Shown here piece after piece: positions 5,944-27,179 of a stretch of DNA of 64,000 nucleotides; position 1 is the stretch's first letter, and each line of letters starts with the position of its first letter. A model generated the notes under the pieces. It worked only from the letters and a program-made list of their open reading frames with translations, was not told the origin of the DNA and ran no database searches. A program made the position numbers and the translations under genes. Source of the stretch: Curvibacter microcysteis (lineage in GTDB: Bacteria; Pseudomonadota; Gammaproteobacteria; Burkholderiales; Burkholderiaceae_C); assembly GCF_028649455.1 (NCBI RefSeq), contig NZ_JAQSIO010000001.1, forward strand, positions 248,001 to 312,000, given 5' to 3'.

Positions 5944-5949
5944 TTAGTG

Positions 5950-6300
5950 GGTCACTTCGAGATGGAAATCAACAGCGTGATGCCTTCGGCGCCTCAAATC
6001 GGGGTTCCCTCAGTCAAACTCGGCTTGTTTCCGGGTTTTGACGGTACGGTCTGATTGGTCCGCATGGCCGGACCGGCAACCTCATGTGATTGGGTGGCCA
6101 TGGGCAAGCCTGCTAACGCTGCGACGACCTTGCAGGCGGGCATCGTGGATGACATGGTGCCTGCGGAGGGGTTGCTTGAGCGCGCCCTTGATGCGCTTTA
6201 CCGGGTGATGGCAGGGCGTGTCGACTGGAAGTCCAAGCAACAGATGAAGCGCGAGAAGTTAGTGATTCCAGACTCAGAGATCAACATTCGAGCCACTGTG
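5950..6300 (+). pseudogene. fadB/fadJ-like fragment (enoyl-CoA hydratase domain) with in-frame stop
   Basis: The translated frame reads 'APQIGVPSVKLGLFPGFDGTV', TGA at 6052-6054, then 'LVRMAGPA...CDWVAMGKPANAATTLQAGIVDDMVP' and 'DWKSKQQMKREKL'. This follows the hydratase-to-dehydrogenase stretch of multifunctional fatty-oxidation proteins (consensus 'PEVkLGLfPGfGGTVRLpRL...GkenrAe.Al..GaVDavV'). A single CGA-to-TGA change would explain the stop, since Arg is expected there. Both ends are missing: the left joins the LysR remnant, the right an IS5-type remnant. Confidence 0.8.
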
Positions 6301-6785: not shown

Positions 6786-7998
6786 TTCCATATGCGGCGC
6801 GAGAGGGACGGGGGCTGGTTACCAGTGCGTTCCCATGATTCCCAGCCACTTCCTCCGATTGCCTTGTTGAGCGCACCTTGAAGATGCCCACGATTCGGTG
6901 AAGGTTCTGGGACTGCTCGTTCAAAGCGCTTGAGGTGGCCGAGATCTCCTCGACGAAAGCGGAGTTTTGTTGAGTGGTTTGATCCATCAATTGCACGGCC
7001 TCACTGATTTGATCGATGTTGAGGCTCTGCTCTGCGGACGATTGGGCAATCTGTCGGGCCAATGTGGTCACCCGATCGACAGAGTCCTGAATTTCTTCAA
7101 CGATGGACTGAACCTGAAGACCCTGCCGGGCCCCTTCTCTGATGTCGGACACCGACAAGGCAATGACGGTTTTGATGTCCTGAGCGGCGGTGGCTGAACG
7201 CTGGGCCAATTGTCGGACTTCGGCCGCCACGACCGAGAACCCTCGCCCTTGCTCCCCGGCTCGGGCTGCCTCGACGGCGGCGTTCAATGCCAGGATATTG
7301 GTCTGAAAAGCGATGCCTTCGATCACACTGCTGATGTCGGCGATTCGTTCCGAGCTGTCACTCAGTTTGTCCAGCGTCTTCTTCATTTGGGTGGACGCGA
7401 CCTGGCCCTGTTGGGTGACTGCGCTGGTGCCTTCCGCCAGCCTGCTTGCGGCCTGGGCCCGCTCTGCGCTTGCTTTCACGGCCTCGGCGATGTGAGACAG
7501 GCTGGCCGACGTTTGCTCCAACGCAGCCGCTTGTTGTTCGGTTCTGGCGGACAGGTCCAGGTTGCCTGCGGAAATCTCTTGCGTGGCAAGGTGGACGCAT
7601 TCAGAAGCGGTACGGATGCGCAGCATGGCCTGTTCCAGACGCTCAAACAATTGGTCGAAGGCCCTGGCAGATGTTCCAAACTCGTCGGCCCGAGGGCTGT
7701 TGGAGCGCGTGGTCAGATCCAGGGAGTTGGTCAGCTCCTGGAACTTATTGCCCTGTCGGTGGAGTCCACCACAAATCACCTTGTGGAAGTGATGTCCTGC
7801 AAGCAGGCATACCAGCACGGTCAGCAGTGCTTGGGCCAGGCTCGTCGGATCTGCCCAACTGGGTTGGTCTGGACCCAGGGTTGCGTTGCCCGAAGCGTGC
7901 AGGGCGGCCTTGAGCAGCAGACCACCCAACTGGAGGAGCGCCAACAGTCCAAAGGTGAGGACGATCTTGGCGCGAATGCTCAATGTGAAAGAACTCAT
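6772..7998 (-). CDS. Short methyl-accepting chemotaxis protein
   Basis: A 408-residue chemoreceptor. Two hydrophobic helices near residues 10-30 and 57-75 enclose only about 25 periplasmic residues, so there is no normal sensor domain. A HAMP-like linker follows, then a full signalling domain with the conserved tip '[31 protein letters not shown]'. ATG 7998 is chosen; the frame also allows a TTG at 8055. There is no C-terminal CheR-binding pentapeptide. The last codons (6772-6785) run into the IS5 remnant, so the tail may have been altered by that insertion. The input signal could be sensed at the membrane or in the cytoplasm. Confidence 0.88.
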
Positions 7999-8208
7999 TT
8001 CCTGCGCTGCCTCGATTAAAGAACTCTTGGAGGAGGGCGACGGGTGGGGCCGCAAACCGTGAGATATGGCATGGGTGGGGTCAGCGGCGATGAGATCGAT
8101 GGGAGCCCGCGCCTGCTCGCCAGGGCTGTTGGGGCTGCCGCAGGCCTGGCGCCCGAGGTCCGAGGCGGGTGCGCTCGTACCTCGGGCGGAAGACGTCTGG
8201 CGCCAGAC

Positions 8209-9414
8209 TCAGGCAAGGCTCGCAGCCACAGGGGTGGCGCGAGTACTCATTTTTTGCGCTACCCGCAGCGCAACGCCAGCCAGCAAAATGGGCACCACAG
8301 GCACAAGCAGCCACAAAGGCGCTGCCAGGTCACTGGCGACAAAGACGCCCATCACCCCCGGACCGATGACAGATCCGATGCGGCCAATGGCTGAACTCCA
8401 GCCGATCCCAGTGGCTCGCAGGGCGGGTGGGTAAAGGCTCACCGCCAGTGCCACCTGGCCAATGGTGCCAGCAATCAGACTGGCACCCACCACCACGATC
8501 AAGGCCAGCAGCACCCCGGGCATGCCCGCGAGCCAGGCACCCAGCGCCAGGGCGATCACCCCGAGCATCGAACTCGCCAGCAAGATGTTGCGGACATGGA
8601 AGCGAAGGCTCAGCGGGATCAGAAGCAGCGCCGCAATCACGCCGCCAATGCCCATGGCCGCGGACCCGAAGGCGACCCCTGAGGTATCAAAGCCCAATCG
8701 GTGCAGCATCGACGGCACCCAGAACGTCAGGGCATAGACCGCCGTGAAGATCAGAAAGGAGAAGGTCCAGAGCAGCAAGGTTTGCGGAGCCAGCCCCGCG
8801 CTGAGCAAGGCACTCACCCGAGCGGGCTGGGGTTGCGCGTCAGCCCAGGTCGAACCACCGGCAATGGCACGGTCTGAGGGCAGGTACATCCAGAGTGCTG
8901 GCAACAGCAGCAAGGGGGCAATGGCTCCCACGATGAAGACGGAGCTCCAACCCCAGGCCAGTATCAATTTTCCGCCGATCGCGCCTCCCACGGCGGCCCC
9001 CAGCGACAGGCCTGAGGTGACACCCACGGTGACGGACTCCCGGCGCCCGGCGGCGACGCCCTCGACGGCAAGAGACACCACCGCAGGGATCGCGGCACCC
9101 AGGCCGATGCCACACACCAGCCTGATCACAGACAACATCGTCACGCTGTCGGCAAGTGCACTGATGCCGGAACCCAGTGCAAACAAAAGGACCGAGGCAA
9201 TGACGACTTCGCGGCGCTGCAGGCGCTCTGTCAACCGGCCACTGATCGCGTAGCCCAAGGCCGCGCCAAGGCTGGTGGCCACAAAGACCGGGGTGAATGC
9301 CGACAGTGGAAGCTGCCACTGCGCGGCCAGGGTGGGCACCACAAAGCCGATGGACGTCGTGTCAAAGCCATCGGCCAAGATCGTTAGGAAGGCGAGCAAA
9401 CTGATCTTGCGCAT
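8209..9414 (-). CDS. MFS transporter, probably aromatic acid:H+ symporter-like
   Basis: A 401-residue, 12-helix major facilitator. Helix 1 carries 'ILADGFDTTSIGFVVP', close to the DGFD motif of the AAHS (aromatic acid) group. The loop after helix 2 has 'GRLTERLQRREV', a variant of motif A, and the C-terminal half has 'PPALRATGIGWSSAIGRIG', also typical of AAHS. It is the last gene of a porin-esterase-MFS unit, so it likely imports the ester or its hydrolysis product. Confidence 0.88.
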   Translation of the reverse strand: MRKISLLAFLTILADGFDTTSIGFVVPTLAAQWQLPLSAFTPVFVATSLGAALGYAISGRLTERLQRREVVIASVLLFALGSGISALADSVTMLSVIRLVCGIGLGAAIPAVVSLAVEGVAAGRRESVTVGVTSGLSLGAAVGGAIGGKLILAWGWSSVFIVGAIAPLLLLPALWMYLPSDRAIAGGSTWADAQPQPARVSALLSAGLAPQTLLLWTFSFLIFTAVYALTFWVPSMLHRLGFDTSGVAFGSAAMGIGGVIAALLLIPLSLRFHVRNILLASSMLGVIALALGAWLAGMPGVLLALIVVVGASLIAGTIGQVALAVSLYPPALRATGIGWSSAIGRIGSVIGPGVMGVFVASDLAAPLWLLVPVVPILLAGVALRVAQKMSTRATPVAASLA

Positions 9415-13616: not shown

Positions 13617-14540
13617 TCAGTGCTGGGCCTCGACTGAACCATCGATCAAGGCCTGCAATGCGGGCTTGGCCAGCTGCAAAAAGGCCTGGCCGGCCAGGCT
13701 GAGCCGCCTCCGGGAGGGGTACAGCGCATAGATGGTCATGGGGGCCAGTGACCAATGCGGGAGCAGCCGGCGCAAACGCCCCTCCGCGACCAAGGGGGCC
13801 GCCAGTGCCACCGGCAGCCGCGTGACGCCCAGGCCCGCCAGCGCGGCTTCCTTGACGGCGAGCAGGTTGTCTGTCACGAAGCGCGCGGGCATCCGCAGTT
13901 CCTCGGCGTGATCCTGGGGGTCTTGCAGGGTCCAGCTGGTCTGGGATTCGCCTGAGTTCCAGCCAATCGAATCTAGCCCGGCCAAGTCCGCTGGGGCGTT
14001 GATCGCTTCCCTGCCTTGCAACAGCCCCGGCGCGGCATACAGACCATAGGGAGCCTGAACCAGCTGTTGGGCGACCACATCAGAGTCAGGTAGCGTCTGG
14101 GAGCTGGGGTGGATCACGATGTCAAAGTTCTGCGCCAATGCCTCGGTGGTGCCTCGGGTCGAGCTCAGAAAAAGGCGCACTCGCGGGTGAGCCAGTCCGT
14201 AGTTGACCGCCACGGAGCAAAGCAGGATCGTGGACAGCGCCATGGGGCAGGCGATGCGCAGATCACCCGCCGGCTCCTTGGCGTTGTCGTTGGCCACCAA
14301 GATGGCGGCATGGGCCGCGTCGCGGATTTTCAGGCCCTGCTCGAACAGTTGTCGCCCCATGTCGGTGACTTCAAAGCGCCGGGTGTTGCGCATGATGACG
14401 CACACACCCAGGCGTTCTTCGAGAGCGCTGATTCGCCGACTCATGCTCGCCAGGGGGATGCCCGATCGCTCACTGGCGGCACGGTAGCCCCCCGACTCAA
14501 CGACTTCGACCAACAGCAGCAACTCTTCGACCGTGGCCAT
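13617..14540 (-). CDS. LysR family transcriptional regulator
   Basis: A 307-residue LTTR starting MATVEELLLLVEVVESGGYRAASERSGI, with HTH 'PLASMSRRISALEERLGV' and an effector domain ending 'RLRRLLPHWSLAPMTIYALYPSRRRLS'. This resembles the AaeR/DsdC-like group. ATG 14540 is preferred because GGGG stands 6 bases upstream and the protein then begins like other LTTRs; ATGs at 14597 and 14615 extend it. It lies just downstream of antC on the same strand and converges with the AraC gene, and may regulate antABC. Confidence 0.85.
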   Translation of the reverse strand: MATVEELLLLVEVVESGGYRAASERSGIPLASMSRRISALEERLGVCVIMRNTRRFEVTDMGRQLFEQGLKIRDAAHAAILVANDNAKEPAGDLRIACPMALSTILLCSVAVNYGLAHPRVRLFLSSTRGTTEALAQNFDIVIHPSSQTLPDSDVVAQQLVQAPYGLYAAPGLLQGREAINAPADLAGLDSIGWNSGESQTSWTLQDPQDHAEELRMPARFVTDNLLAVKEAALAGLGVTRLPVALAAPLVAEGRLRRLLPHWSLAPMTIYALYPSRRRLSLAGQAFLQLAKPALQALIDGSVEAQH

Positions 14541-14714
14541 CAGCCCCGATGTGTTCTTGGCGAGATCGGTTCCGCCGGTTTTTTCTTTCACAGCCATGGG
14601 AATCAAGCACAACATGCCGGTTGGCGGACCGTCCGCGCTCGGCCATTGCCAAGCACTGCCACTATAGGCCGCAAATGGATGGCGCTGCTGTTACGGCGGT
14701 CCGGGGCCTGGAGT

Positions 14715-15728
14715 TCATGCGCCCGGGGTGAAGCGTTCGATGTAAAAGCCTGCGGGTTGACAGGGGGCCGTCGCCATCCAGTCACTGAGCGCTTGCACCA
14801 TCATCGGCGGGCCACACACATACATGTCGACATCACCCTCGCGCAGCATGCTGGGCTGCAAGTGCTGAACCAAGTGACCGCGAAGCCCCTGGGTGGATGC
14901 AGGGTCGGAGACGCACAAAGTGACTTCCAGTTGAGGCAGTCGGTGTCGGAGGGTCTGCAGCAGGGACAGCACCGGGACATCCTGGTCATCCGACAGGCCC
15001 AGCAGAAGGTGGCAGGCTGGTGCCGAGTCAGGATTTTGTGCCAGCAATTCCAGCATGGCCAGCATCGGGCCCAGGCCGGTTCCTCCGGCTAGCATCAGCA
15101 AGGGCCGTCGGGCGGGGCGCAGGTAGAAGCTGCCAAACGACGCTTGCAGCTTCAGGCTTTCACCGGCCTGGGCCTGGTGTTGCAGCCACTGGCTCATGCG
15201 GCCATCCGGCAACAGGCGCACCAGCAGGTCGACCTCTCCGGGCTCGCGCACCAGGGAGCTGAAGGAGTAGGCCCGGCTAGCACTGCCATCGGGCAGCCAC
15301 AGCCTCAGGTACTGGCCGGGCAGGAAGCGCATCGCCATCAACTGGGGGTGCTCCAGGGTCAGCGACACCATGCGGGGGCCCCGTTTTTGGAGTGAACGCA
15401 CGCGCACTTCCAGCTCGAGCGGCTTGTGCAGGCAGGCCGAAGCGTCGATCGGGACGTGCACGACGCCATGGGAGCGGGGCCGCATCTGGCAACCCAGGGC
15501 CCAGCCGAGTTGGGCGTCAGCTGCACTCAGTGCGTCTTCTGCGCAGTCTCCAGGGTCGAAGTCGCCTGACTCCACCTGGCATCGGCAGGTGCCGCAAGCG
15601 CCTTCCCGACAGTCCACCGGGAAGCGAATGCCCTGGCGAATCGAGGCGTCCGCCAGGGTTTCGCCGGACCTCACCTGGATGAAGCGTGTGGCGCCGTCCT
15701 CGAAGCGCAAGCCAATCTGATGTTCCAT
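14715..15728 (-). CDS. antC: Anthranilate 1,2-dioxygenase, reductase component
   Basis: A 337-residue electron-transfer protein. The N-terminal plant-type [2Fe-2S] domain has Cys40, Cys45, Cys48 and Cys80 (CREGACGTC core). An FAD domain follows with RAYS at 152-155, then an NAD domain with GGTGLG at 215-220 and 'YVCGPPMM' near the C terminus. It moves electrons from NADH to the AntAB oxygenase. ATG 15728 has AAAGG upstream; a GTG at 15746 overlapping the antB stop is less likely. The order antA-antB-antC and the homology of AntA support anthranilate over benzoate as substrate. Confidence 0.9.
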   Translation of the reverse strand: MEHQIGLRFEDGATRFIQVRSGETLADASIRQGIRFPVDCREGACGTCRCQVESGDFDPGDCAEDALSAADAQLGWALGCQMRPRSHGVVHVPIDASACLHKPLELEVRVRSLQKRGPRMVSLTLEHPQLMAMRFLPGQYLRLWLPDGSASRAYSFSSLVREPGEVDLLVRLLPDGRMSQWLQHQAQAGESLKLQASFGSFYLRPARRPLLMLAGGTGLGPMLAMLELLAQNPDSAPACHLLLGLSDDQDVPVLSLLQTLRHRLPQLEVTLCVSDPASTQGLRGHLVQHLQPSMLREGDVDMYVCGPPMMVQALSDWMATAPCQPAGFYIERFTPGA

Positions 15729-15742
15729 GGTTTCGCCTTTGA

Positions 15743-16237
15743 TCACAGGTGGTAGAAGTCCAGCACCGCATTGATCCGGTCGTTGAGCAACAACACATGC
15801 TTGCGCAGGATGCTGAAGCTCGCTCCGCTTTGGCGCATCTCGTAGCTCACTTCACCGAAGTAGCAGTCGGCCTGGCCTTGGCGGGTGTAGTGGGTGCTCC
15901 ATTTCGCACCGACCTGGAGGACGCCCTGCGCTTGCGAGCGAATGCGCACGTTGTTGATCTGGTGCAGGGTGCGTGGCATGGGTTGGCTGGCAGCCGACTT
16001 GCCGGTCCGCAGGCGGAAGATGCGGTCTTCCAGGCCGCCCCGGTTGGCGTAGTAAATCATCGACATCTCGCGCTTCGGGTCGGTCGTGGCGACATGCTCG
16101 GAGTCCCACTGAGGCACATGGAAGACGGCGCTGGGTTCAAAACACGCCAGGTACTCATCCCATTGCTGGCGGTCGCACCAGTCGGCCTGGTCGTACAGGA
16201 ATTGTTCGACAGCGTGTTGAAGCTCAATGGGGCTCAT
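15743..16237 (-). CDS. antB: Anthranilate 1,2-dioxygenase, small (beta) subunit
   Basis: A 164-residue ring-hydroxylating dioxygenase beta subunit (SnoaL/NTF2-like fold), the usual AntB length. Recognisable stretches are 'EQFLYDQADWCDRQQWDEYLACF', 'IYYANRGGLEDRIFRLRTGKSAA' and 'LRKHVLLLNDRINAVLDFYHL'. Structural partner of AntA in an alpha3-beta3 oxygenase. The start ATG 16237 overlaps the antA stop (16234-16236), implying translational coupling; the open frame reaching 16405 is an artefact inside antA. Confidence 0.9.
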   Translation of the reverse strand: MSPIELQHAVEQFLYDQADWCDRQQWDEYLACFEPSAVFHVPQWDSEHVATTDPKREMSMIYYANRGGLEDRIFRLRTGKSAASQPMPRTLHQINNVRIRSQAQGVLQVGAKWSTHYTRQGQADCYFGEVSYEMRQSGASFSILRKHVLLLNDRINAVLDFYHL

Positions 16238-17628
16238 GCCTGTACCTCCTTGGCGGTGGATGCGTGGTCTGCGAGGCCGTCCAGCATCTTTTGCCGCCAA
16301 GCGCTGTGTTGATTCACGAACAAGCCTTCGTGGGTGATCTCGGTGCCCGTGAGCACGGGGTGGATGCCCAGGGTCTGGGCGTTGTGGGTTTGCTCGCTTG
16401 TCCAAGCCTGGCAGCCTCGCGAGATGTCGTTCCAGGGCTCGGCGCGGCCTTGAAAGCCGCGTTGCGCTTCGCGGAACTCAACCAGGTCGTCTGGCGTTCC
16501 CATGCCGCTGACATTGAAGAAGTCCTCGAACTGGCGGATGCGATTTTCACGATCTGCCGGTGATTCGCCCTTGACCCCAATGCACTGGCTGACGATCTCC
16601 GTCTTGTTCCAGGCGACCGGGCGAATGATGCGCAGCTGCGAGCTGATCTGGTCCATGAAGAACAGGCTGGGGTACAGGTTGAGGTTGCGCAGTCGATGCA
16701 TCATCCAGCGCGCTCGTTCCGGCCCGTGTTCGGCCTCAGCCCGCGGCATCACGGTGGCGTAGCCCGCGCGAACTTCCGGATTGGGCATTTCGCTGAACAA
16801 CACCGAGTGACCGTGCTGGAACGAGAACCAGCCATCGTCCGTGGTGGCGTCTCCTGCGCCGAGCTTGCGGTAGTCCAGGGTTTTGAAATCGGTGCTGCCT
16901 TGCGCGCTGTCCAGTTCGTGGCGGTGGACCACGGTGGCTACATAGTTGTAGTGCACGGTGCTGACGTGGTAACCGTCCAGGCCGTTCTCGGTTTGCAGTT
17001 TCCAGTTGCCGTCGAAGGTATAGGTTGAACGCCCTGGCAACACCTCCAGTTCACCGGTCGGCGATTGGTCCACCATCAGGTCCAGGAACACTTTGGTATC
17101 GCCAAGGTAGTCCTCCAGCGCCAGGCTGGTTTCGGTGTCCAAGTTGATGAACACGAAGCCTCGGTAGCTGGCGACTTTGGCCTTCTTCAAGCCGTGCTGA
17201 TGGAGGTCAAAGTCAGGTCCGTATTCGCTCGGCGCTTTGACTTTGATCAGGCGACCATCGGGCTTGTAGGTCCAAGCGTGGAAGGGACAGGTGAAGGCAG
17301 CCTGTCGGCCTTTGCAAACGCGCGTCAGCGTCGTGCCTCGGTGTGCGCAGGCGTTGATGAGCGCGTGGAGTTGACCCTGTGCATCTCGGGTGACGATCAG
17401 GGGTTGGCGACCAGCGTTCAAGGTGATGAAGTCGTTGGGCTGGCTGATTTCGCTTTCATGGCAGGCATAGATCCATGTCTTCTCGAAGATCAACGCCATT
17501 TCGAGATCGAACAGTTCGGGCTCCGTGAACATGTCTCGCCGGACGCGGTAGACCTGGTCCTCGGGTCTGAAGTCCAAACAGCCATCGATGAAGTCGCGCC
17601 ATTGTTGCGGGCTGCGTGAGGTACTCAT
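16234..17628 (-). CDS. antA: Anthranilate 1,2-dioxygenase, large (alpha) subunit
   Basis: A 464-residue Rieske non-haem iron oxygenase that converts anthranilate to catechol with loss of CO2 and ammonia. Rieske ligands are Cys94, His96, Cys114 and His117; the mononuclear iron site has Asp218, His221 and His226 ('NGLDGYHVSTVHYN'). The N terminus 'FIDGCLDFRPEDQVYRV' and 'FTEPELFDLEMALIFEKTWIYACHESEI' closely follow AntA proteins. ATG 17628 has AGGA about 9 bases upstream. First gene of antABC; a terminator at 17885-17923 isolates it from catA, so it needs its own promoter in 17635-17885. Confidence 0.92.
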   Translation of the reverse strand: MSTSRSPQQWRDFIDGCLDFRPEDQVYRVRRDMFTEPELFDLEMALIFEKTWIYACHESEISQPNDFITLNAGRQPLIVTRDAQGQLHALINACAHRGTTLTRVCKGRQAAFTCPFHAWTYKPDGRLIKVKAPSEYGPDFDLHQHGLKKAKVASYRGFVFINLDTETSLALEDYLGDTKVFLDLMVDQSPTGELEVLPGRSTYTFDGNWKLQTENGLDGYHVSTVHYNYVATVVHRHELDSAQGSTDFKTLDYRKLGAGDATTDDGWFSFQHGHSVLFSEMPNPEVRAGYATVMPRAEAEHGPERARWMMHRLRNLNLYPSLFFMDQISSQLRIIRPVAWNKTEIVSQCIGVKGESPADRENRIRQFEDFFNVSGMGTPDDLVEFREAQRGFQGRAEPWNDISRGCQAWTSEQTHNAQTLGIHPVLTGTEITHEGLFVNQHSAWRQKMLDGLADHASTAKEVQA

Positions 17629-18017
17629 GGGCAATTCCTGGGGGGGTGGATCGGTTAGCTGTATTAGGCCCAGCCGTCCCTGAGCTGGCTATCCACATTC
17701 AGCGTGCTCCCTATCCAGTTCCAACGCGGCCCAACAGGATCAGTAGCGCCCTCCTGAGCCTGCGCAAGGCAGGTCATTCAATCAGTGCTTCATTTGGAGT
17801 CGCGTTCGTTCTGGCTCGATGCTGGCGTTCAGCGTAGGTGACCCAGGCCTGTGCGAAGTGCGAGGCTCGATGTGCGAGGTGGAATTGAAAAAGGCGACCA
17901 GCAGTCTCTGCATGGTCGCCTTTGTGGGCGCGTGTGGGGGCTCAAAGTGGCGGGGGAAGCCGCTCTCTTCGCTTCAAGCCAGTGACACCGCGTTCAGCCT
18001 TGAGGAGCAGGCTGTGA
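17629..18017. promoter_or_regulatory. Intergenic region: catA terminator plus antABC promoter space
   Basis: 389 bases between catA (ends 18018) and antA (starts 17628), both on the minus strand. It holds one strong hairpin (listed separately). The 250 bases between that hairpin and antA should contain the antABC promoter; I could not single out -35/-10 boxes. Confidence 0.5.
17885..17923 (-). terminator. Rho-independent terminator after catBA
   Basis: On the minus strand AAAGGCGACCA (11 bases) pairs perfectly with TGGTCGCCTTT, and an inner GCAG/CTGC pairing with one bulged A extends the stem to 15 pairs around a 3-base loop. The stem is followed by TTTTTC. It should end catA transcription before antABC. 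Confidence 0.85.
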
Positions 18018-18956
18018 TCAAGCCCCTACGGCTCGAGCGATCCGGGTGCGTGGATCTGTATCACGCTCGGTGAGTGCTAGCTGCATCACGAAGTCGAATT
18101 TGGCGCGTTCAAAAGGAGCGTCAACGCCCAGCGATTCGTAGCCGGCAGGGGAGACGTCGTGTTCGATCTTCAGCACGAGGCCGTCGCGGGTCGCAAAGGC
18201 GAAGTCGTCGTCGATGTAGGTGTCGCCCGGGATGTTGATCTGGGTCGTCAGAGTACGGTGCCCTTCCTTCACGATATGGAAGTGAATGTGGGCCGGGCGG
18301 TGACCATGGCGACCCAGCAAGCTGAACAGTTCTGAAGTTGGGCTGTTCGGGGGGATCGCGTAGCCTGGCGGCAAGGTCGTGCGGAAGCGGTAGTTGCCTT
18401 GGGCATCCGTTTCGATCTTGCGACGCAGTTCGAACTCCTTGAGGCCAGGAAAGAAGTGCGAGTAGCCACCGTCCTTGTTGGCATGCCAGGCATCCATGAT
18501 GGCGTTCGCCACGGGCTGGCCTGCGTGATCCAGGACACGACCTTCCATGATCAGGACCTTGCCAGTGCCCCGGGTATCGCTATCGTCGTCGAGCACGGCT
18601 TCACCCTTGGACAGCGGAGCGCCAGGGACGTACAGGGGCCCTTCGATGGCCCGCGGCGTGCCAGCAGCGATGCCAGCCTTCGCGTCAGCTTCATCCATGC
18701 GAATGTCCAGCAGCCGGTCGAAACCCAGGCCTGCCGTGATCAGACCGATCTGGCCCGAGGCACCCAGGCGGCCAAGCCAATCTGCGGCGGCCCAGAATTC
18801 GTCCGGCGACACGTCCAACTCATCGATGGCCTTGAACAAGTCAGCCACGATGCGGGCGACGATGGCTCGTGCCCTTGGATTGCCGTCTGCAATCTTCACG
18901 CTGTTGACGTGTTCCAGCAGGCTTTGCTGAGTGAATTCATTCTTTTGGTTGCTCAT
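18018..18956 (-). CDS. catA: Catechol 1,2-dioxygenase
   Basis: A 312-residue intradiol dioxygenase that opens catechol to cis,cis-muconate, using Fe(III). The four iron ligands are present: Tyr165 (GGYSHF), Tyr199 (PPGYA), His223 and His225 (RPAHIHFH). The N-terminal helical dimerisation domain ('RARAIVARIVADLFKAIDELDVSPDEFWAAADWL') is typical. ATG 18956 is supported by GGAG 9 bases upstream; the frame extends to 19082 only because it runs through the catC remnant region. Receives catechol from both AntABC and the Iac enzymes. Confidence 0.95.
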   Translation of the reverse strand: MSNQKNEFTQQSLLEHVNSVKIADGNPRARAIVARIVADLFKAIDELDVSPDEFWAAADWLGRLGASGQIGLITAGLGFDRLLDIRMDEADAKAGIAAGTPRAIEGPLYVPGAPLSKGEAVLDDDSDTRGTGKVLIMEGRVLDHAGQPVANAIMDAWHANKDGGYSHFFPGLKEFELRRKIETDAQGNYRFRTTLPPGYAIPPNSPTSELFSLLGRHGHRPAHIHFHIVKEGHRTLTTQINIPGDTYIDDDFAFATRDGLVLKIEHDVSPAGYESLGVDAPFERAKFDFVMQLALTERDTDPRTRIARAVGA

Positions 18957-18999: not shown

Positions 19000-19143
19000 T
19001 CAAGCGATCGCTGATGGGTGTTGCGCCAGTGGAGTGACCGAGATCTCTGGCGCCTAGGCTTTCTCGCGGCTCTTGATGGCATCGGCCTGCGCTGGGGGCA
19101 GGGCGGTGCGTAAGTTCACGTCCATGCGGACAAGGTCAGGCAT
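19000..19143 (-). pseudogene. catC: catC (muconolactone isomerase) remnant with internal deletion
   Basis: From ATG 19143 the frame reads MPDLVRMDVNLRTALPPAQ..., 29 codons matching the start of muconolactone isomerase ('...VrMdVnLP..m....a..ika.EKa'). It then meets TAG at 19054-19056. In the same frame the next codons read PEISVTPLAQHPSAIA and stop at 19000-19002, matching the C-terminal end of CatC ('YMDIeVTpLaqHPSSI'). So about 48 codons remain of a gene that is normally about 95 long: both ends survive and the middle is gone. It sits where catC is expected, between catB and catA. Confidence 0.85.
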
Positions 19144-19154
19144 GTTCTGGCTCC

Positions 19155-20336
19155 TCATGGTTGGTTGCGTTGCCCCAGGTCGATGTGCACCGCATTCAGA
19201 CCCGTGCGTGCTCGATCGAATCGCTCGAGTTGTCCCAGATCGACCTCAATGCCGAAGCCGGGGCCATCGGGAAGTTGCAGCTCAAAGTCGACGATGGGCA
19301 TGCGTGCAGTCACGATGTCGTCCACCAGCAGTTGAGGACCGAAGAGTTCACAGCCATGGTGTTGGTCCCCGAGGGTGGCAAACACATGGGCAGAGGCTGC
19401 ACTGCCAATCGAAGTCTCCAGCATGGTGCCGCCATACCAGCCGATATCAGCAGCCTCCGCGACGGCAGCCACCTGAAGCGTGCGCAGCAGCCCGCCATGC
19501 TTGGCCACTTTCAGAGAAAACACCTGACAGGCCTGGTCGCGTGCCAGCGCCATGGCGTCCTGCGGGGTGCACACCGACTCATCGGCCATGATGCAGGCGC
19601 TCGAGCCCAGCGATGCGCTCAACACCTTGAGGGCTTCACGATTCCACTTGGCCACGGGCTGTTCGATCAGCGTGACGCCGGCATCAATCAGTTGCGGCAG
19701 GAACCGTCTGGCCGTGCTGCCGTCCCAGGCCTGATTGACGTCGACCGTCAGTGTGGCCTTGCCTTCCAGGCCACGTGCGATTTGGCTGACGTGGGCGACA
19801 TCGTCCGCTGGGCTGCGAGCCCCGATCTTCATTTTGAAGATGCGGTGGCGCTTTTGCTCCAGACGCAGTTGAGCTTCTTCCAGGTCCTTGCGCACATCGC
19901 CACTGGCCAGTGTCCAGGCAAGGGGCAGACTATCGTGGCGTTTGCCACCCAACAGCTGATAAGCCGGCAGTTCAAGGGAGCGGCTGACGGCGTCGATGAG
20001 CGCCATTTCAACGGCACTCTTGGCAAAGGCATTGCCACGGCAGAAGGTGTCCATGCGTGTCAGCACACGACCGAAGGAGCCGCCGTCCTGCCCGATCAGA
20101 CAAGGCGCCAGGTAGGCGTTGATGGCGTGCAGGATGCTCTCTGGAGACTCCTCGTTCCACGAAGGCCCGCCGATGGTGGCTGCCTCGCCGAAGCCGCAGG
20201 CCCCATGGCGCAGCCACAGCTGCACGATGACTGGGCTCTGGCGGTTGATGGCACCGAATGCCAGCTTGTGGGGCCGGATGGTGGGGATGTCCAGAATCCA
20301 CGCCTCAATACGTTCGATCACGAAACGACTCTGCAT
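19155..20336 (-). CDS. catB: Muconate cycloisomerase
   Basis: A 393-residue enolase-superfamily enzyme converting cis,cis-muconate to muconolactone. The barrel motifs are intact: K-M-K at 168-170, Asp199 (VDVNQ), Glu225 (LIEQP), Asp252 (ADES) and Lys276 ('SLKVAKHGG'); the three acids bind the metal and the lysines are the acid/base pair. The N-terminal capping domain includes 'SPVIVQLWLRHGACGFGEAATIGGPSW'. ATG 20336 has AAGG about 8 bases upstream. First gene of catB-(catC remnant)-catA and divergent from a LysR gene. Confidence 0.93.
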   Translation of the reverse strand: MQSRFVIERIEAWILDIPTIRPHKLAFGAINRQSPVIVQLWLRHGACGFGEAATIGGPSWNEESPESILHAINAYLAPCLIGQDGGSFGRVLTRMDTFCRGNAFAKSAVEMALIDAVSRSLELPAYQLLGGKRHDSLPLAWTLASGDVRKDLEEAQLRLEQKRHRIFKMKIGARSPADDVAHVSQIARGLEGKATLTVDVNQAWDGSTARRFLPQLIDAGVTLIEQPVAKWNREALKVLSASLGSSACIMADESVCTPQDAMALARDQACQVFSLKVAKHGGLLRTLQVAAVAEAADIGWYGGTMLETSIGSAASAHVFATLGDQHHGCELFGPQLLVDDIVTARMPIVDFELQLPDGPGFGIEVDLGQLERFDRARTGLNAVHIDLGQRNQP

Positions 20337-20464
20337 TAACAACCTTTTTGATGTGCTTCACTGGTAGGCATTGATGAAGGTTACGAGGAAGCCATATCGC
20401 ATTCAAATGAATTATTTATGTTCAAATGTTCGACATTATCGAATGATTGATTTGGGATACCGGC
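20337..20464. promoter_or_regulatory. catB/LysR divergent promoter with two inverted repeats
   Basis: Perfect inverted repeat TTCGA-CATTA-TCGAA at 20429-20443 (fits LysR T-N11-A spacing) and ATTCA-AA-TGAAT at 20401-20412. The first lies about 20 bases before the LysR start. These are good candidates for recognition and activation sites of the divergent regulator, which would typically respond to muconate. Confidence 0.6.
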
Positions 20465-21343
20465 ATGGAGATTCGACAGCTTCGTTACTTCCTCGACATT
20501 GCGGAGACTGAGCACCTGACGCAGTCGGCGCAGAACCTTTTCGTCACTCAGTCCACGCTGTCACATGGCTTGAGGCAGCTCGAGGCGGAACTGGATACCT
20601 CCTTGTTTGACCGGCTTGGGCGGGGCCTGAAGTTGTCCCAAGCGGGCGCTGAATTCAGGGTCTATGCCACCAGAGCCCTCAAAGAGATCGAGGCAGGTCG
20701 CATGGCACTGGCCGATTTGAGCGGCCTGCAATCAGGTCGCTTGACCATCGGCGCCATCCCGACTTTCCTCAACACCGTGCTGCCGGCCACGGTGGCCGCA
20801 TTCTGCGAGGCCTATCCCAAGGTGCAGGTCGAGGTCCGTGATTTGCGTGCCGGTCCGATCGAGGACCAATTGATGAGCGGGGAGCTGGATTTGGGCATTG
20901 CTTTCCACCCCACCCGCGATGAAGAGATCGAAACCGAGCCCTTGTTCGAGGAGCGCATGATGGTGGTGCTTCGCAAGACCGCTCCAGAGGCGCATGGCCA
21001 ACACATCTCCTTGAAGCAGGCGGCGCAATTGCCCATGGCCTTGCTGCCGCGCAGTTTTGCAACGAGGCGGATGTTGGACGAGAAATTCAGGCTCGCAGGG
21101 GTCGAACCCCGTGTCCGAGTCGAAATGGAGTCAGTGGAGGCCTTGCTTGGCGTGTGCCAGCATGGCTCCCTGGCCACCATCGTGCCTGAGCGCGCCTCCC
21201 TTCAGATGCCTGATTTGTATGCGATGGCGCTCACGGCGCCAGAGGTGGTGCGGCATGCCGGCTTGCTCTGGCGGCGCTCAGCCTCCCGCAGCGTGGCCGC
21301 GCGAGAGTTTGCCGCCATGTTGCGCTCTGTGCATCTTTCTTGA
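20465..21343 (+). CDS. LysR family regulator, probably controls catB
   Basis: A 292-residue LTTR starting MEIRQLRYFLDIAETEHLTQSAQNL with HTH 'TQSTLSHGLRQLEAELDTSLF'. The effector domain follows ('LTIGAIPTFLNTVLPATVAAF', 'MSGELDLGIAF'). The N terminus resembles the CynR/CatR-like set. ATG 20465 is inside the frame that opens at 20447 and gives the usual LTTR N terminus. Its position opposite catB suggests a CatR/BenM-like, muconate-responsive activator; that is inferred from context. Confidence 0.88.
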   Translation: MEIRQLRYFLDIAETEHLTQSAQNLFVTQSTLSHGLRQLEAELDTSLFDRLGRGLKLSQAGAEFRVYATRALKEIEAGRMALADLSGLQSGRLTIGAIPTFLNTVLPATVAAFCEAYPKVQVEVRDLRAGPIEDQLMSGELDLGIAFHPTRDEEIETEPLFEERMMVVLRKTAPEAHGQHISLKQAAQLPMALLPRSFATRRMLDEKFRLAGVEPRVRVEMESVEALLGVCQHGSLATIVPERASLQMPDLYAMALTAPEVVRHAGLLWRRSASRSVAAREFAAMLRSVHLS

Positions 21344-21578
21344 GGAGGCGCTTCATGTCATACAGATGCCACCGCTCGAGCGATGCGCCGACAGGGGGGC
21401 GCTCAGGCGCTTCATCAAGTGACAGCATCGAACAATGAGTCAAAGATTTTTCATTGGTCGTGGCGACTTGGTCGAGCTATGGTCGGTCGGTCCGTCTGAC
21501 GCATTCAGCGTGTGGCGCCCCGCGCCTGCTGAGCTCCTCAACGGATGACCCTTTCACATTTCCCACGGTTACTCTTTG

Positions 21579-22343
21579 ATGCCTCCAATTCACTTTGTCC
21601 GCCAGGGACACGGCCCCGAAATCGTCCTGAGCCATGCGCTGGGTTGTGACCTGACGATGTGGGACGAGTTGGCCGATTGCCTGCAACACCACTTCACCGT
21701 GCTTCGATACGATCATCGTGGGCATGGTCGCTCGCCAGCCCCATCGGGGGCTTTCAGCATGGACGACCTCGCCGATGATGCTGCGCGTTTCATCGCGCAA
21801 AACGCCAGTGGGCCGGTGCATTTTGTAGGCCTGTCGATGGGGGGGATGACGGCTCAGGCCTTGGCGGCGCGTCACCCTGCCTCGGTTCGGTCGATCTGCA
21901 TTGCGAATTCAGCGAGCCACTATGGTGAGGGGGCCAAAGCGCTGTGGCAGACCCGGGTGGACACCGTGCGTGCACTCGGCATGGAAGCGATTGCGGAGGG
22001 CGCCCTGCAGCGTTGGTTCACGCCAGAGTTTCGCGACGACGTTCAGGGGCGCGAACGGGTGAACGACTTGCGTCGGGTGCTGCTCTCCACCGAGGCCAAG
22101 CCTTATGCAGAAGCGTGCTTGGCCGTGGCCAACATTGCCTTGGATGAAGGCAATAGAACCATTACCTGCCCGACCCTTGTCATTGCGGGGGGGCGCGATG
22201 AGGCAACGCCCCCAGCCCTGTCTGAGGCCATCGCTGCGGCTATTCCTGGTGCGCAGTTGCAGAGGCTCAATGCGGCGCACTTGAGTGCAGTGGAGCAGCC
22301 GAAGTTGTTTGCTGCGCTGTTGGAAGCCTTTTACCAACCGTGA
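21579..22343 (+). CDS. 3-oxoadipate enol-lactonase-like alpha/beta hydrolase
   Basis: A 254-residue alpha/beta hydrolase. Nucleophile elbow GLSMGG with Ser86, oxyanion region 'LSHALGCDLTMWDEL', 'YDHRGHGRSPAP' and 'GGRDEATPP' plus a late His ('LNAAHLSAVEQP') give a full triad. This pattern is close to PcaD/CatD, which hydrolyse 3-oxoadipate enol-lactone to 3-oxoadipate. It follows the LysR gene on the same strand, in the catechol ortho-cleavage block, which supports the call; other ester hydrolases of the same family cannot be excluded. Confidence 0.8.
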   Translation: MPPIHFVRQGHGPEIVLSHALGCDLTMWDELADCLQHHFTVLRYDHRGHGRSPAPSGAFSMDDLADDAARFIAQNASGPVHFVGLSMGGMTAQALAARHPASVRSICIANSASHYGEGAKALWQTRVDTVRALGMEAIAEGALQRWFTPEFRDDVQGRERVNDLRRVLLSTEAKPYAEACLAVANIALDEGNRTITCPTLVIAGGRDEATPPALSEAIAAAIPGAQLQRLNAAHLSAVEQPKLFAALLEAFYQP

Positions 22344-22599: not shown

Positions 22600-23100
22600 T
22601 CAGGCGCTCGTTCGCGATTCGCCCAAGTGGTGGTAGGCGCGATTGAAATATGCCAGCCCCTGGGAGCTCTCTGCGGGCAGGCGGATGTCGCGCAATTCCG
22701 TGATGAAGATGCTGTGCGAGCCCACTTCGTGGATGTGGGTGATGACGCCATCAAAGTTGACCAGAGCGCCTTGCAAGGCGGGGGCGCCGGTGCTCAAGGG
22801 TCGCCAGGCCACCTGTGCAAAGCGGTCTTCCATCGTCACGTCGCGGTTGGCAAACAGGGCCGACAGGTCCTGCTGGGCAGCCGACAAGACATTGACGCAT
22901 ATCGCTCGGTTTTCCACAAAGAATCGATGCGCGAAGGAGGATCGGTTCATGCAGACCAGCAAGGTTGGAGGCTGGTCTGTGACGCTGCAGACCGCCGAAG
23001 CCGTGAAGCCCGCCAGGCCGGCGGCACCATCGGTGGTGATCACGTTGACTGCACCAGCCAACAAAGACATGCCGTTTCTAAAATCAGGAATGGAAACCAT
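22600..23100 (-). CDS. iacG: Flavin reductase (IAA degradation)
   Basis: A 166-residue flavin reductase-like, FMN-binding split-barrel protein: 'FRNGMSLLAGAVNVITTDGAAGLAGFTASAVCSVTDQPPTLLVCMN', then 'FCVNVLS'-type 'AICVNVLSAAQQDLS' and a late 'HIHEVGSHSIFITEL'. It probably supplies reduced flavin to the IacA oxygenase. ATG 23100 has GGAG 8 bases upstream; the frame upstream to 23220 is inside iacF. Last gene of the iacABICDEFG operon. Confidence 0.88.
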   Translation of the reverse strand: MVSIPDFRNGMSLLAGAVNVITTDGAAGLAGFTASAVCSVTDQPPTLLVCMNRSSFAHRFFVENRAICVNVLSAAQQDLSALFANRDVTMEDRFAQVAWRPLSTGAPALQGALVNFDGVITHIHEVGSHSIFITELRDIRLPAESSQGLAYFNRAYHHLGESRTSA

Positions 23101-23111
23101 GCTGAACTCCT

Positions 23112-24074
23112 TCAAATGTCTAGCACCAGTCGGGCGGATTTGGCGCGCGAGCAGCACGTCATGATCTGGTCGTTGTCCGTCTTTTCTTCGTCGGTGAGGT
23201 ACACATCGCGGTGATCGCATTCACCCTCCAGAACCGTGCAGACGCAGGTGCCGCAGACGCCTTCCTGGCAAGAGACCTGCACCTGGATGCCGACCGACTT
23301 CAGGGCGGCCACGATGCTCTCGCCCTCCTTCACCTGCACCGTCTTGCCGCTGGCTGCGGCCACCACCTCAAAGGCGCCGCCGCGCGTGTCGACCTCGGCG
23401 TTGAAGTATTCCCGGTGGATCTGGGCAGTGGGCAGGCCATGTTGTTCGCTGGTGCCGATCACCCAGTCCATGAAGCCCGAAGGACCACAAACATACAGGT
23501 GGGTATGGGCGGTGCCCGCTGCGGCCAGCACCGCTGCGATCTGGAGTCGGCCCGCATCACCCGCATCGTCGAAATGCAGGTGCACCTTGTCGGCGAAGGG
23601 GGCTGCGGCCAGTTCTGCCAGAAAGGCACTGCTTGCGGCGGAGCGCGTGCAGTAGTGCAACTCGAAGTGCTTGCCCGCCGCTGAAAGGGCATAAGCCATG
23701 GCGATCATGGGCGTGATGCCGATGCCGCCACCGACCAGCACACTGTGCTGGGCCTCAGGTACCAAAGGGAAATGGTTGCGCGGGGCGCCAATGGTGACGA
23801 CCGTGCCTTCATTGAGGCGATCGAAGACCGCGAGCGAGCCGCCTCGGGAGGCGGGGTCACGCAGCACGCCGAGTCGGTAGCGGCTTTTCTCGGCAGGGTC
23901 GCCGCACAGCGAATATTGGCGAACCAGGTCGGGGGCCAGATGGACGTCGATGTGGGCGCCAGCCTCGAACCTGGGCAGACTGTGGCCGTCGGCGCTCTCC
24001 AGATCCAGGACAACGACACCGCCGCCTTGAATCTCTCTGCGCTGCACAACGACCTGGTGGGTGAGGGCGTTCAT
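23112..24074 (-). CDS. iacF: Ferredoxin reductase component of the IAA pathway dioxygenase
   Basis: A 320-residue phthalate dioxygenase reductase-type protein: N-terminal flavin domain (RQYSL), NAD domain (GGGIGITPM, 'LYVCGPSGFMDWV') and C-terminal [2Fe-2S] domain with a CQEGVCGTC cluster. The domain order is the reverse of AntC, so the two reductases belong to different classes. It feeds electrons from NAD(P)H to the IacC/IacD oxygenase. ATG 24074 is used. It sits between iacE and iacG with short gaps. Confidence 0.9.
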   Translation of the reverse strand: MNALTHQVVVQRREIQGGGVVVLDLESADGHSLPRFEAGAHIDVHLAPDLVRQYSLCGDPAEKSRYRLGVLRDPASRGGSLAVFDRLNEGTVVTIGAPRNHFPLVPEAQHSVLVGGGIGITPMIAMAYALSAAGKHFELHYCTRSAASSAFLAELAAAPFADKVHLHFDDAGDAGRLQIAAVLAAAGTAHTHLYVCGPSGFMDWVIGTSEQHGLPTAQIHREYFNAEVDTRGGAFEVVAAASGKTVQVKEGESIVAALKSVGIQVQVSCQEGVCGTCVCTVLEGECDHRDVYLTDEEKTDNDQIMTCCSRAKSARLVLDI

Positions 24075-24099
24075 GGGTGTTTCCTTCTTGTGATGCACT

Positions 24100-24846
24100 T
24101 CAGCGCATGAAGATGCCGCCGTTCACGTCCCAAGCGGCGCCGGTACATGAATCAGCCTCTGGCGAGGCCAGTTGCACGACTTGTGCCGCGATGAAGCGCG
24201 GATCGCCCAGGCGCTGCACTGGGATGGCTGAAACCAATTTTTCGAGCTTGTCAGCCGGCACGGCTTGGCGCACGGAGGGCAGATCGAGTGGGCCGGGTGC
24301 CATGGCATTGACCGTGACGCCACTGGCGGCCAGTTCGCGCGCGAAGATCTTGGTCAAGGTCAGGATGCCCGCCTTGGATGAGGCGTAGTGCGCACCCGAA
24401 GCGGTGCCGCCGTTCTGCCCAGCCAGGGAGGCGATGTTGATCAATCGACCATAGCCGTGGCTGGCCATGCGGGCACCAAACACTTGGCAACCGAGAAAGG
24501 TCCCGCGCAGGTTGATTCGAAGCACCTCTTCAAACTCTTCCGGGGTGATCTGCATCACCGGCGTGGTCACTGTCACGGCCGCGTTGTTCACGGCCACATG
24601 CAGCTGGCCCCAGCGTGCGGCAAGGGCATCGGCCGCATCCTCGAACGCCGATTTGGACACCACATCCAGGGCCAGACCCAGGGTGCTGTCGCCGCTGGGG
24701 TCAAGGTCCCGCGCGGCCCGTTCGGCGGCCGCGCCGTCACGGTCGCTCAGTGCAACGCGGTAGCCCGCGGCGTGCAATGCCTGCGCAATGAACAGGCCCA
24801 GGCCATGGGCAGCGCCTGTGACCAGGGCGTTTTGTCGTTCTGCCAT
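24100..24846 (-). CDS. iacE: SDR family oxidoreductase of the IAA pathway
   Basis: A 248-residue classical short-chain dehydrogenase: GAAHGLG cofactor motif near residue 11, NNAA at about 88-91, catalytic YASSK, and C-terminal 'AAWDVNGGIFMR'. In characterised iac loci IacE works early in the pathway, after IacA, on the hydroxylated IAA intermediate. ATG 24846 lies 9 bases after the iacD stop. Assignment rests on family plus gene order. Confidence 0.9.
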   Translation of the reverse strand: MAERQNALVTGAAHGLGLFIAQALHAAGYRVALSDRDGAAAERAARDLDPSGDSTLGLALDVVSKSAFEDAADALAARWGQLHVAVNNAAVTVTTPVMQITPEEFEEVLRINLRGTFLGCQVFGARMASHGYGRLINIASLAGQNGGTASGAHYASSKAGILTLTKIFARELAASGVTVNAMAPGPLDLPSVRQAVPADKLEKLVSAIPVQRLGDPRFIAAQVVQLASPEADSCTGAAWDVNGGIFMR

Positions 24847-24855
24847 GGGTGGGCC

Positions 24856-25332
24856 TCAGAGGATGTAGCCGACGGCGGTGAGCGTGTCGGTTGAGTTGAT
24901 GAGCTTGACGATCTTGCGGTGGATGAGGAAGCCCTTACCTTCGCGCAACAGTTCGTAGGTGACATCGGAGGTGTGCTCGCGAAAGCGATCCTTGCGGAAC
25001 TCGCGCAGGTTCTGCGCGCAACGCACGGTGACCTGGGTGCCGGCGTCGCTCAACAGGCGAAAGCGCGATACGTTGCGCACCGTGCGTGCCACCGGGGCAG
25101 AGGAGATCGCCTCTCCGCCGGTCAGGCGTGCCACACGTTTTTCGCGCATCTGGGCGTCGTCATAGGCGTAGTTCAGGGTGTTTTCATGGTCGACTTCGTT
25201 GGGATCGATCGGTATCACGTAAACCCCTTCAGGGGCCCAGAGCTGGAGCCAGTCCTGGTACTCGTTGTGGTCCAGCATGTCGCTTTCGGCCCAGATGAAG
25301 GCGGTTGCTTCTTGCAGCAGCGTGGTGTTCAT
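24856..25332 (-). CDS. iacD: Ring-hydroxylating dioxygenase small subunit of the IAA pathway
   Basis: A 158-residue dioxygenase beta subunit: 'ATAFIWAESDMLDHNEYQDWLQLWAPEGVYVIPI', 'LTGGEAISSAPVARTVRNVSRFRLL' and a C-terminal 'GKGFLIHRKIVKLINSTDTL'. It pairs with IacC, whose gene stops 21 bases upstream. The complex forms catechol from the oxidised IAA intermediate. No catalytic residues are expected in this subunit. Confidence 0.9.
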   Translation of the reverse strand: MNTTLLQEATAFIWAESDMLDHNEYQDWLQLWAPEGVYVIPIDPNEVDHENTLNYAYDDAQMREKRVARLTGGEAISSAPVARTVRNVSRFRLLSDAGTQVTVRCAQNLREFRKDRFREHTSDVTYELLREGKGFLIHRKIVKLINSTDTLTAVGYIL

Positions 25333-25353
25333 TTTTTGGCTTCCTTCCCTGGC

Positions 25354-26628
25354 TCAGGCGGTCATCAGTTTTTTCCACTGCTGGTAGGCAGCGCGCATGC
25401 CGGTTTCGGCGCTCACATCACCCGCCACACCGTCGGCGGTCTTCTTTTCGGCGGGCAGGCCCCGGTTGAGCAGCACCCACAAGTCACGTCCGGCCTGGGC
25501 GCCGGCTTGCACCCGTTCCCACGCTTCCGAGTCGTCCGGCGTACCAAAGCCCATGGGGCCCTGGAAGTGCTCGTGCATGCGCAGGCGAGCGCGGTTGCCA
25601 GCTGGAGGGCCTCCGTCCATCAGGATCACGCTGTGATGGATTTCGGTTTCGTTGACCGATATCGGTTGCAAGACCCGAAAGAAGGCCATAGAGCAGGCAA
25701 TGTTGGGGAACAGGTTCAGGTTGAAGCCCGAGCCACCCACGGCGCGTACGATCTGTCGCACCTTGGCTTCCTCATGGCCTTCGGCACGCAGTGCTTCGGC
25801 CAAATCGGTGTAGCGATCGGGGATGGGTCTCTCCAGGTCTGCTTCCAGGTCAATCAGGTCGGGAATCATCACCATCACGCTGTGGCCATTGCCCAGGTCT
25901 TCGACATAGCCCTTGCCGCCCACGAAGTCGAGCATCTCTTCGGTCTGCTTGTCCACGGAGTGAAGAAACGAACGATGCACCAAGGGGAAGTGGTAGGCGT
26001 CGGTGGTGTTTTCCAGTTGGATCTTCCAATTGCCTGGAAATTTGAAGCGATGCTCGCCACCGACCTTGATCGGAAAGCTGCCGCCTTGCTTCATGAACAG
26101 GTCCATCCACTTTTTGGCCGGGCCCAGGTAGTCGCTCAGGGGTTCAATGTCGTCCTTGAAGGTGGCGAACACCATGCCGGCGTATTCCTCGACACGCAGG
26201 TTCACCAGCGGGTGTTCCGCCTTGTCGAGAATGTCGCCATAGCTTTCTGGGTGGGGCACGCCCCGCAGGCTGCCATCCAGCGCATAGCTCCAGCCGTGGT
26301 AAGGGCAGACGAAGGTGTTGGCCTTGCCTTTCTTGTGTTCACACACCGTGGCAGCGCGGTGGCGGCAGCGGTTGAGCAGCACACGCACCTGCTTTTTGCG
26401 GTCGCGGACCACGATGACGGGCTCCTTGCCTACCCAGTGGGTCTTGTAGCTGCCCACATCGGGCACCTCGCTGACGTGCGCCACCCATACCCAGGTGTTG
26501 CGAAAGACTTTCTCCATTTCGTCTTCAAAGATGGATGGGTCGGTGTACAGCGAGGTGTGGACCTTGTCGGACTGCACCAGTTCGCTGACGGGGCGGTGGA
26601 AATGAATCGGTTGAGCAGGAGCATTCAT
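25354..26628 (-). CDS. iacC: Rieske dioxygenase large subunit of the IAA pathway
   Basis: A 424-residue Rieske oxygenase alpha subunit. Rieske ligands are Cys88, His90, Cys108 and His111; the mononuclear iron site has Asp210, His213 and His218 ('NTTDAYHFPLVH'). In known iac loci IacC/IacD, with reductase IacF, catalyses the last step that gives catechol. ATG 26628 is chosen over the frame reaching 26691, which would overlap the upstream gene. Clearly distinct from AntA in the same window. Confidence 0.92.
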   Translation of the reverse strand: MNAPAQPIHFHRPVSELVQSDKVHTSLYTDPSIFEDEMEKVFRNTWVWVAHVSEVPDVGSYKTHWVGKEPVIVVRDRKKQVRVLLNRCRHRAATVCEHKKGKANTFVCPYHGWSYALDGSLRGVPHPESYGDILDKAEHPLVNLRVEEYAGMVFATFKDDIEPLSDYLGPAKKWMDLFMKQGGSFPIKVGGEHRFKFPGNWKIQLENTTDAYHFPLVHRSFLHSVDKQTEEMLDFVGGKGYVEDLGNGHSVMVMIPDLIDLEADLERPIPDRYTDLAEALRAEGHEEAKVRQIVRAVGGSGFNLNLFPNIACSMAFFRVLQPISVNETEIHHSVILMDGGPPAGNRARLRMHEHFQGPMGFGTPDDSEAWERVQAGAQAGRDLWVLLNRGLPAEKKTADGVAGDVSAETGMRAAYQQWKKLMTA

Positions 26629-26645
26629 GGGGGTGCCTCTGTTAA

Positions 26646-27179
26646 TTAGTTGTCTTGGGAAGGAACTGGCAGCAGCGCGCTGCTGTTCCATGCACTGGTG
26701 GGTCGGCTGAAGAGGTTCTCTGTCTGGAACTGGGCGATGCGCCAGACGCCGTCTTCAGAGCGCAGCTTCAAGCTGAGTTGCGCGGCATTGAGGTGAGAGT
26801 TCTGGTCAGCGAAGGTCGATGTCTGCAACATCACCCAGCTCGCATCTGCGCTGAGGGCATCAGCCGACACGCCGATGGTTTCAGAACAGAGAAAGTGAAC
26901 GTTCAAGGCGAAGTGCGCCGGTGTCCGCATGTAGGTGCGGAACATGGCAGCAATCGCTTCACGCCCGCGGTGGCCACCAAAGCGGCCGGAATAGAGCGCC
27001 CCCCGGCCTTCCCAAGTGGCGTCTTCGGTGAAAAGGCCGGCCAGCTCCTGCAGCGGTGTCTTGGCGTTGAGCCGGTCGCACAGGGCCATGTAGCGGGTGA
27101 TGCAGGCGCGGATCAAGCCTTCGGCTTGAAGGCGTCGCACCTGCAGTTGCAGGTCGGCGATCTGCTGTTCTGGTGTCAT
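26646..27179 (-). CDS. iacI: SnoaL/NTF2-like protein of the IAA locus
   Basis: A 177-residue protein with a SnoaL-like (nuclear transport factor 2) fold: 'IRACITRYMALCDRLNAKTPLQELAGLFTEDATWEGRG', 'GREAIAAMF' and 'RSEDGVWRIAQF'. A coiled N-terminal segment (residues 3-22) precedes it. Its place between iacB and iacC matches iacI in iacABICDEFG-type loci; the biochemical role is not well defined. ATG 27179 is used because the upstream 25 codons overlap iacB. Confidence 0.75.
   Translation of the reverse strand: MTPEQQIADLQLQVRRLQAEGLIRACITRYMALCDRLNAKTPLQELAGLFTEDATWEGRGALYSGRFGGHRGREAIAAMFRTYMRTPAHFALNVHFLCSETIGVSADALSADASWVMLQTSTFADQNSHLNAAQLSLKLRSEDGVWRIAQFQTENLFSRPTSAWNSSALLPVPSQDN

Follow-up and report, generated by a model that had tools for sequence, protein, structure and literature searches.

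The freshwater bacterium Curvibacter microcysteis was found to carry two half-decayed copies of the catechol-degradation cluster. In the 64,000-nucleotide stretch analyzed here (the window), catC is a relic and the neighboring catB survives. A second locus, on contig C2, mirrors this, with a surviving catC beside a relic of catB. Very probably the genome once held two redundant cat clusters that underwent reciprocal gene loss, with the catC function kept on C2. The pathway looks complete, with its genes divided between two genomic locations, and a step missing from an operon need not be a step missing from the cell. The process is of an ordinary and already known kind. The state in which it is met is unusually clear, the breakup of a pathway operon having been caught with both scars readable.

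The catC relic in the ant-cat cluster

The first-pass annotation had described intact catA, catB and lactonase genes around a collapsed catC, and whole genes with matches to the respective models were found for all three. The muconate cycloisomerase gene catB (19155..20336, minus strand) scored 439.6 bits with TIGR02534, above the cut-off, and was 93% identical to its counterparts in C. lanceolatus and C. gracilis. The intact catechol 1,2-dioxygenase gene catA (18018..18956, minus strand) scored 363.5 bits with TIGR02439, below the cut-off of 392. The pcaD-type 3-oxoadipate enol-lactonase gene (21576..22343, plus strand) scored 245 bits with TIGR02427, just below the cut-off of 255.85; its best match by E-value was the fused PcaCD model, also below cut-off. 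The LysR-type regulator gene divergent from catB, catR (20465..21343, plus strand), had CynR as its best NCBIfam match (272.9 bits, just below the cut-off of 277). The cluster also encodes anthranilate 1,2-dioxygenase, which makes catechol, with the large subunit gene antA (16234..17634; TIGR03228, 834.6 bits, above cut-off), the small subunit gene antB (15743..16246; TIGR03231, 224.3 bits, above cut-off) and antC for an electron transfer component of the BenC/AntC type (14715..15746; best match BenC, 367.9 bits, below the cut-off of 430), all on the minus strand. It ends with a second LysR-type regulator gene (13617..14615, minus strand), which C. lanceolatus and C. gracilis likewise have.

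Between catB and catA, the minus strand at 19000..19143 holds what is left of the muconolactone isomerase gene catC, with the ATG at 19143 and a TGA ending at 19000. Its translation reads MPDLVRMDVNLRTALPPAQADAIKSREKA, a stop, APEISVTPLAQHPSAIA and the terminal stop, i.e., 29 codons, TAG, 17 codons and TGA. Compared to intact relatives, codons 1-33 are joined directly to codons 79-92 by an in-frame deletion of 135 bases (45 of 92 codons), with a best-fit start after base 97-99 of the gene. Both ends of the gene thus survive in one frame with about half of it gone, as first described. The same description had placed a TAG at the joint. The TAG is present, but it is codon 30 and precedes the joint by about three codons, and it is therefore a separate point change and not a product of the joining.

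The similarity of the two peptide ends to CatC held up, as tblastn with intact CatC against the fetched loci and the window matched exactly the relic stretch, with an E-value of 2e-5 over both ends together. Alignment to C. lanceolatus and C. gracilis, the comparison with relatives that had been called for, revealed an intact 92-codon catC between catB and catA at the same place in both. These two were also the closest to the relic (80.7 and 82.2% identity over the 135 retained bases, with the next best at 72%) in a ranking against 58 other catC sequences that excluded the two shorter catC matches L080 and L094.

Relative to C. lanceolatus, 10 of the 48 retained codons (1-33 and 79 to the stop) had changed in meaning, TAG included, compared to 48 of 705 in catB and catA together (Fisher p 0.002). 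All 10 were among the 33 codons of the 5′ piece, a part that is also variable among intact CatC, and none was among the 15 of the 3′ piece, in which 8 of 8 base changes were silent. The shift in codon position over the whole relic (9/25 vs. 62/289) was not significant (p 0.13). Since decay is uneven in these respects, the inactivation may be recent. A full-length, stop-free CatC domain of about 90 residues is not encoded by the relic, which was absent from the matches of a PF02426 profile search of the whole genome. We consider it highly probable that the relic is a dead catC from one of two redundant cat clusters once present in the genome.

An assembly or sequencing error could in principle hide a full catC at 19000-19143, and one genome of the species was compared. 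A depth of 147x is nevertheless reported for strain HBC28, placed in C. microcysteis, in the available part of PMC10699270, with which a local assembly error is unlikely, and the locus lies within a contig of 1.14 Mb. Moreover, the relic has substitutions of its own, namely the 10 altered codons, whereas a clean mis-join would add none. We regard such an error as exceedingly improbable.

The second cat locus on contig C2

The first-pass annotation had concluded that the cell needs another catC, and one was found. A PF02426 search of the whole genome (4,822,995 bases in 21 contigs) returned a single intact muconolactone isomerase gene, at C2:661780-662046 (6.2e-42). Its product contains the full-length domain (143.9 bits compared to a cut-off of 26.7, positions 1-89 of 90) and matched the solved muconolactone isomerase 1MLI over its full length (residues 1-91). 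It is predicted to be a muconolactone isomerase, an assignment to be read with 5-chloromuconolactone dehalogenases being nearly as close by sequence.

The closest comparison was strain HBC61, the type strain of C. cyanobacteriorum (PMC10699270, available part). The C2 CatC is 97% identical to that of HBC61 and the catC genes are 93% identical. They differ by 19 base changes, distributed 3/1/15 over the three codon positions, and by three amino-acid changes in 93 codons including the stop. With 15 of the 19 changes at third positions and so few amino-acid changes, C2 catC is, by this measure, under strong purifying constraint.

Directly upstream of C2 catC lies a remnant of catB, matched by the first 36 residues of the window CatB at 53% identity and lacking about 1.1 kb relative to HBC61. 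The stub retains an ATG, and its frame of 64 codons runs into the start of catC and stops there (L036:9500-9714, minus strand); through this overlap it may couple the translation of catC. At the corresponding site in HBC61, between mocR and rpiA, the genes are pcaD-catR-catB-catC-tctC-catA-tctC, in that order. On C2 the site holds only the operator described below, the catB stub, catC and two tctC-type genes (PF03401, which we take to name the same family as COG3181). With the queries used for HBC61, no pcaD, catR or catA was found within 19.5 kb around C2 catC. The scar left by pcaD and catR is consistent with one deletion of some 1.8 kb, both ends of which share the four bases AGCC, and in the place of catA there is a gap of about 60 bases. 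Identity to HBC61 was 78% over 104 aligned bases of the stub, 46/52 in the operator block and 45/62 in the leader; the difference in conservation between the operator block and the rest gave a p of 0.054. The C2 locus is what is left of another cat cluster, of the HBC61 type.

Of the five functions common to both cluster types, the window has four and C2 the fifth. Only one close copy each of catA, catB and pcaD was found in the genome, all three in the window, with the next matches being 29% identical for catA, 31% for pcaD and, besides the C2 stub, 27% for the next long match to catB. Genes of the pcaI and pcaF types are located on contig C5 (one pcaF-type gene above cut-off).

The relic had originally been taken to leave a gap at step three, or to end the pathway at muconolactone. 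The window operon indeed has no working catC, and on its own it would fit a pathway that stops at muconolactone or serves only to make it. This reading is extremely unlikely, however, as an intact and constrained catC with a cat operator upstream is present on C2, and as pcaD in the window and the pcaI- and pcaF-type genes on C5 provide for later steps. With the full-length catC on C2 added to catA, catB and pcaD in the window, loss of the pathway was rejected. In the available part of PMC10699270, use of catechol is predicted from KEGG for every strain but C. delicatus.

A candidate operator shared by the two loci

In the window, the LysR gene catR is divergent from the cat operon, and an odd palindrome of the T-N11-A type lies between them. 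The TTCGATNNNNTCGAA-like palindrome in the catR-catB gap was found by eye to be common to the relatives (26 upstream regions). In an alignment of the regions upstream of catB from the window, C2 and 24 further loci, most were seen by eye to contain a TTCGAT-N3-ATCGAA-like element followed by AAATAAATCATT, with variation. A stricter operator pattern was present in 33 of the 58 loci having both catR and catB. Pseudomonas fluorescens PS691 has only a fragment of catR, and the operator element is absent there.

The pattern TCGAACNNTNNANNNNAAATAANTCATT was found exactly at two places in 4.82 Mb, before catB in the window (20406..20433, minus strand; C1:268406-268433), where it is part of the candidate conserved catR/catB operator, and before the stub and catC on C2; since these very sites had served to compose the pattern, the informative result is its absence elsewhere and not their mutual resemblance. 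The next-best sites were two with three mismatches each, and a control with the reversed pattern gave 0. Given an operator at two sites only, in a pattern drawn from those sites, the split pathway probably represents one CatR regulon acting in trans, with the CatR of the window controlling catC on C2. Somewhat short of even confidence, we suggest further that reciprocal decay has made of the two clusters a single regulon that is obligatorily split. The CatR of the window would drive C2 catC in trans from an orphaned promoter and catB stub, neither locus alone would support growth on catechol, and neither could be lost or transferred without the other. The two-site operator offers a simple system for asking whether the regulator that came with one cluster takes control of the leftover promoter of the other.

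A CatR-type regulon with a CatR/ClcR/CynR homologue and an odd T-N11-A palindrome has been described for five Comamonadaceae, the predicted targets being CatA, CatB and CatC homologues, COG3181 genes and the regulator's own divergent gene (PMC6449761). As far as the available part of that source describes it, the present system resembles this regulon in its CynR-like LysR protein, the divergent catB, the odd palindrome and the tctC-type (PF03401) genes beside C2 catC. It differs in having its cat genes at two unlinked places, each without the genes kept by the other. A split of cat genes between two decayed loci is not mentioned in the part of PMC6449761 available.

catC loss in other genomes and the origin of the split

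We surveyed 80 loci, from named genomes, at which a related CatB is encoded, counting catC where a match of at least 87 residues was found in the fetched DNA. By this measure catC was present at 59 loci, collapsed at one (PS691) and absent from the fetched DNA at 20. Fifteen of the 21 genomes without a full-length catC at the locus had an intact muconolactone isomerase gene elsewhere, PS691 two of them and the other 14 exactly one. Loss of the catC next to a related catB is thus common in genomes with another catC. The other six, five Bacilli and a Rhodovarius with CatB 44-50% identical, were found to have no muconolactone isomerase at all. Rhodovarius lipocyclicus (L116, around 5486-8600) has a catR-catB-tctC cluster with CatB at 50% and no catC between, and its whole 4.6 Mb genome gave no PF02426 match; it is a candidate for a pathway truly without muconolactone isomerase, or with an unrelated one.

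In P. fluorescens PS691, the collapsed catC also lies between catB and catA (L063:11197-11340). It has lost 149 bases, compared to 135 in the window, with the first lost base at about 90 compared to 98-100, and its frame is shifted. Common descent of the two collapses was rejected, as the CatB tree, built from the window and loci L053-L105 (54 rows), places PS691 elsewhere and catC is intact in both sister species of the window. Two other CatB sequences were oddly placed in the tree, those from the records named Chitinophaga pinensis (L061, a metagenome-assembled genome) and Pantoea sp. 18069 (L087); both are encoded in cat clusters and grouped with Malikia and Acidovorax, perhaps through errors of binning or naming, or through transfer.

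Independent collapse with nearby break points is what might be expected if a shortened catC were kept for a use of its own, as a leader peptide, a translational spacer or an RNA element between catB and catA, and the silent changes in the 3′ piece of the window relic point the same way. The deletion in PS691 is frameshifted, though, the window relic has its stop at codon 30, and the two cases are the only ones and came to attention in hindsight. A piece of 15 codons with none but silent changes is also compatible with an inactivation in the recent past. As RNA, the relic stretch folded no better than shuffled sequences (z 0.03), and a retained RNA structure in the relic was rejected. An own use of the shortened gene is very unlikely, and the relic is better read as a dead gene.

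Alternatively, the split could stem from horizontal gain of a cluster already without catC and not from loss within the genome. In its favor, cluster types are patchy across the genus, and at 21 of the 80 loci the fetched DNA contained no full-length catC. In the closest relatives of the window cluster, however, catC is intact, and CatB and CatR of the window, C. lanceolatus and C. gracilis each form a fully supported group (100/100). The loss of catC therefore postdates the split from these two species, which makes gain of a cluster already lacking it unlikely; it may have occurred within the C. microcysteis lineage or, shortly ahead of a transfer, in the donor. A CatB at least 84% identical to that of the window was found in four of nine Curvibacter genomes, the present one included, and the other three of the four have an intact catC adjoining. 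The window type of catB was not found in HBC61. No cat genes were seen near the closest mocR in C. lanceolatus and C. gracilis (mocR 59 and 58% identical) or in two further genomes (G007 and G003), and rpiA was not placed there. The window cluster may have been gained horizontally, or may be an old duplicate since lost by HBC61.

For reciprocal loss, we propose that the ancestor would have carried two functionally overlapping clusters, one of the window type, as in C. lanceolatus and C. gracilis (ant-catA-catC-catB-catR-pcaD), and one of the C2 type, as in HBC61. The window cluster would have lost catC, and the C2 cluster pcaD, catR, most of catB, and catA. The C2 catC would still make muconolactone isomerase, and muconate would be converted to muconolactone and on to the enol-lactone by enzymes encoded at two unlinked loci. 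From the sequences we infer that a single cell once had both clusters in full and that C2 catC is expressed, as well as the order of the loss events; among the genomes compared, none was seen to have the two clusters complete.

Redundant genes that arise by duplication or horizontal gain can be resolved by reciprocal loss, which leaves each gene in a single copy, with both sources contributing survivors. Were five redundant gene pairs each to lose one member by chance, a single cluster would supply every survivor in 1 of 16 cases and both clusters would contribute in 15 of 16. Mixed survival is therefore the rule, and no special selection for splitting is needed; this suggests that operons may scatter without selection for scattering. 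What sets the present case apart from general reciprocal loss is that both scars are still readable and the cis-regulatory site has been kept at both loci. A literature search for a catC pseudogene gave no match. Among the matches listed in literature searches on reciprocal loss and on gene loss, no bacterial catabolic example was recognized from titles and the beginnings of abstracts, and the matches listed for cat genes in Comamonadaceae, catechol and benzoate in Curvibacter, paired catechol gene sets, CatR operators, operon mosaicism and gene loss included no report of the present case.

Two cat clusters in one cell are known from Frateuria sp. ANA-18, Burkholderia sp. TH2, Pseudomonas putida ND6 and Acinetobacter lwoffii K24, and cross-regulation of the two sets has been described for ND6 (PMC9705993). 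C. microcysteis resembles these bacteria in having two sets of cat genes. In the available part of that source their sets are treated as working, whereas here neither cluster is complete.

The cat genes of the window are adjoined at 22600-26691 by a cluster encoding a flavin reductase, a ferredoxin reductase, an SDR protein and the alpha and beta subunits of a ring-hydroxylating dioxygenase. In C. lanceolatus the equivalent block (93-98% identical by protein) is on a contig other than that of its cat cluster, and the counterpart in HBC61, on contig C11, is 61-79% identical.
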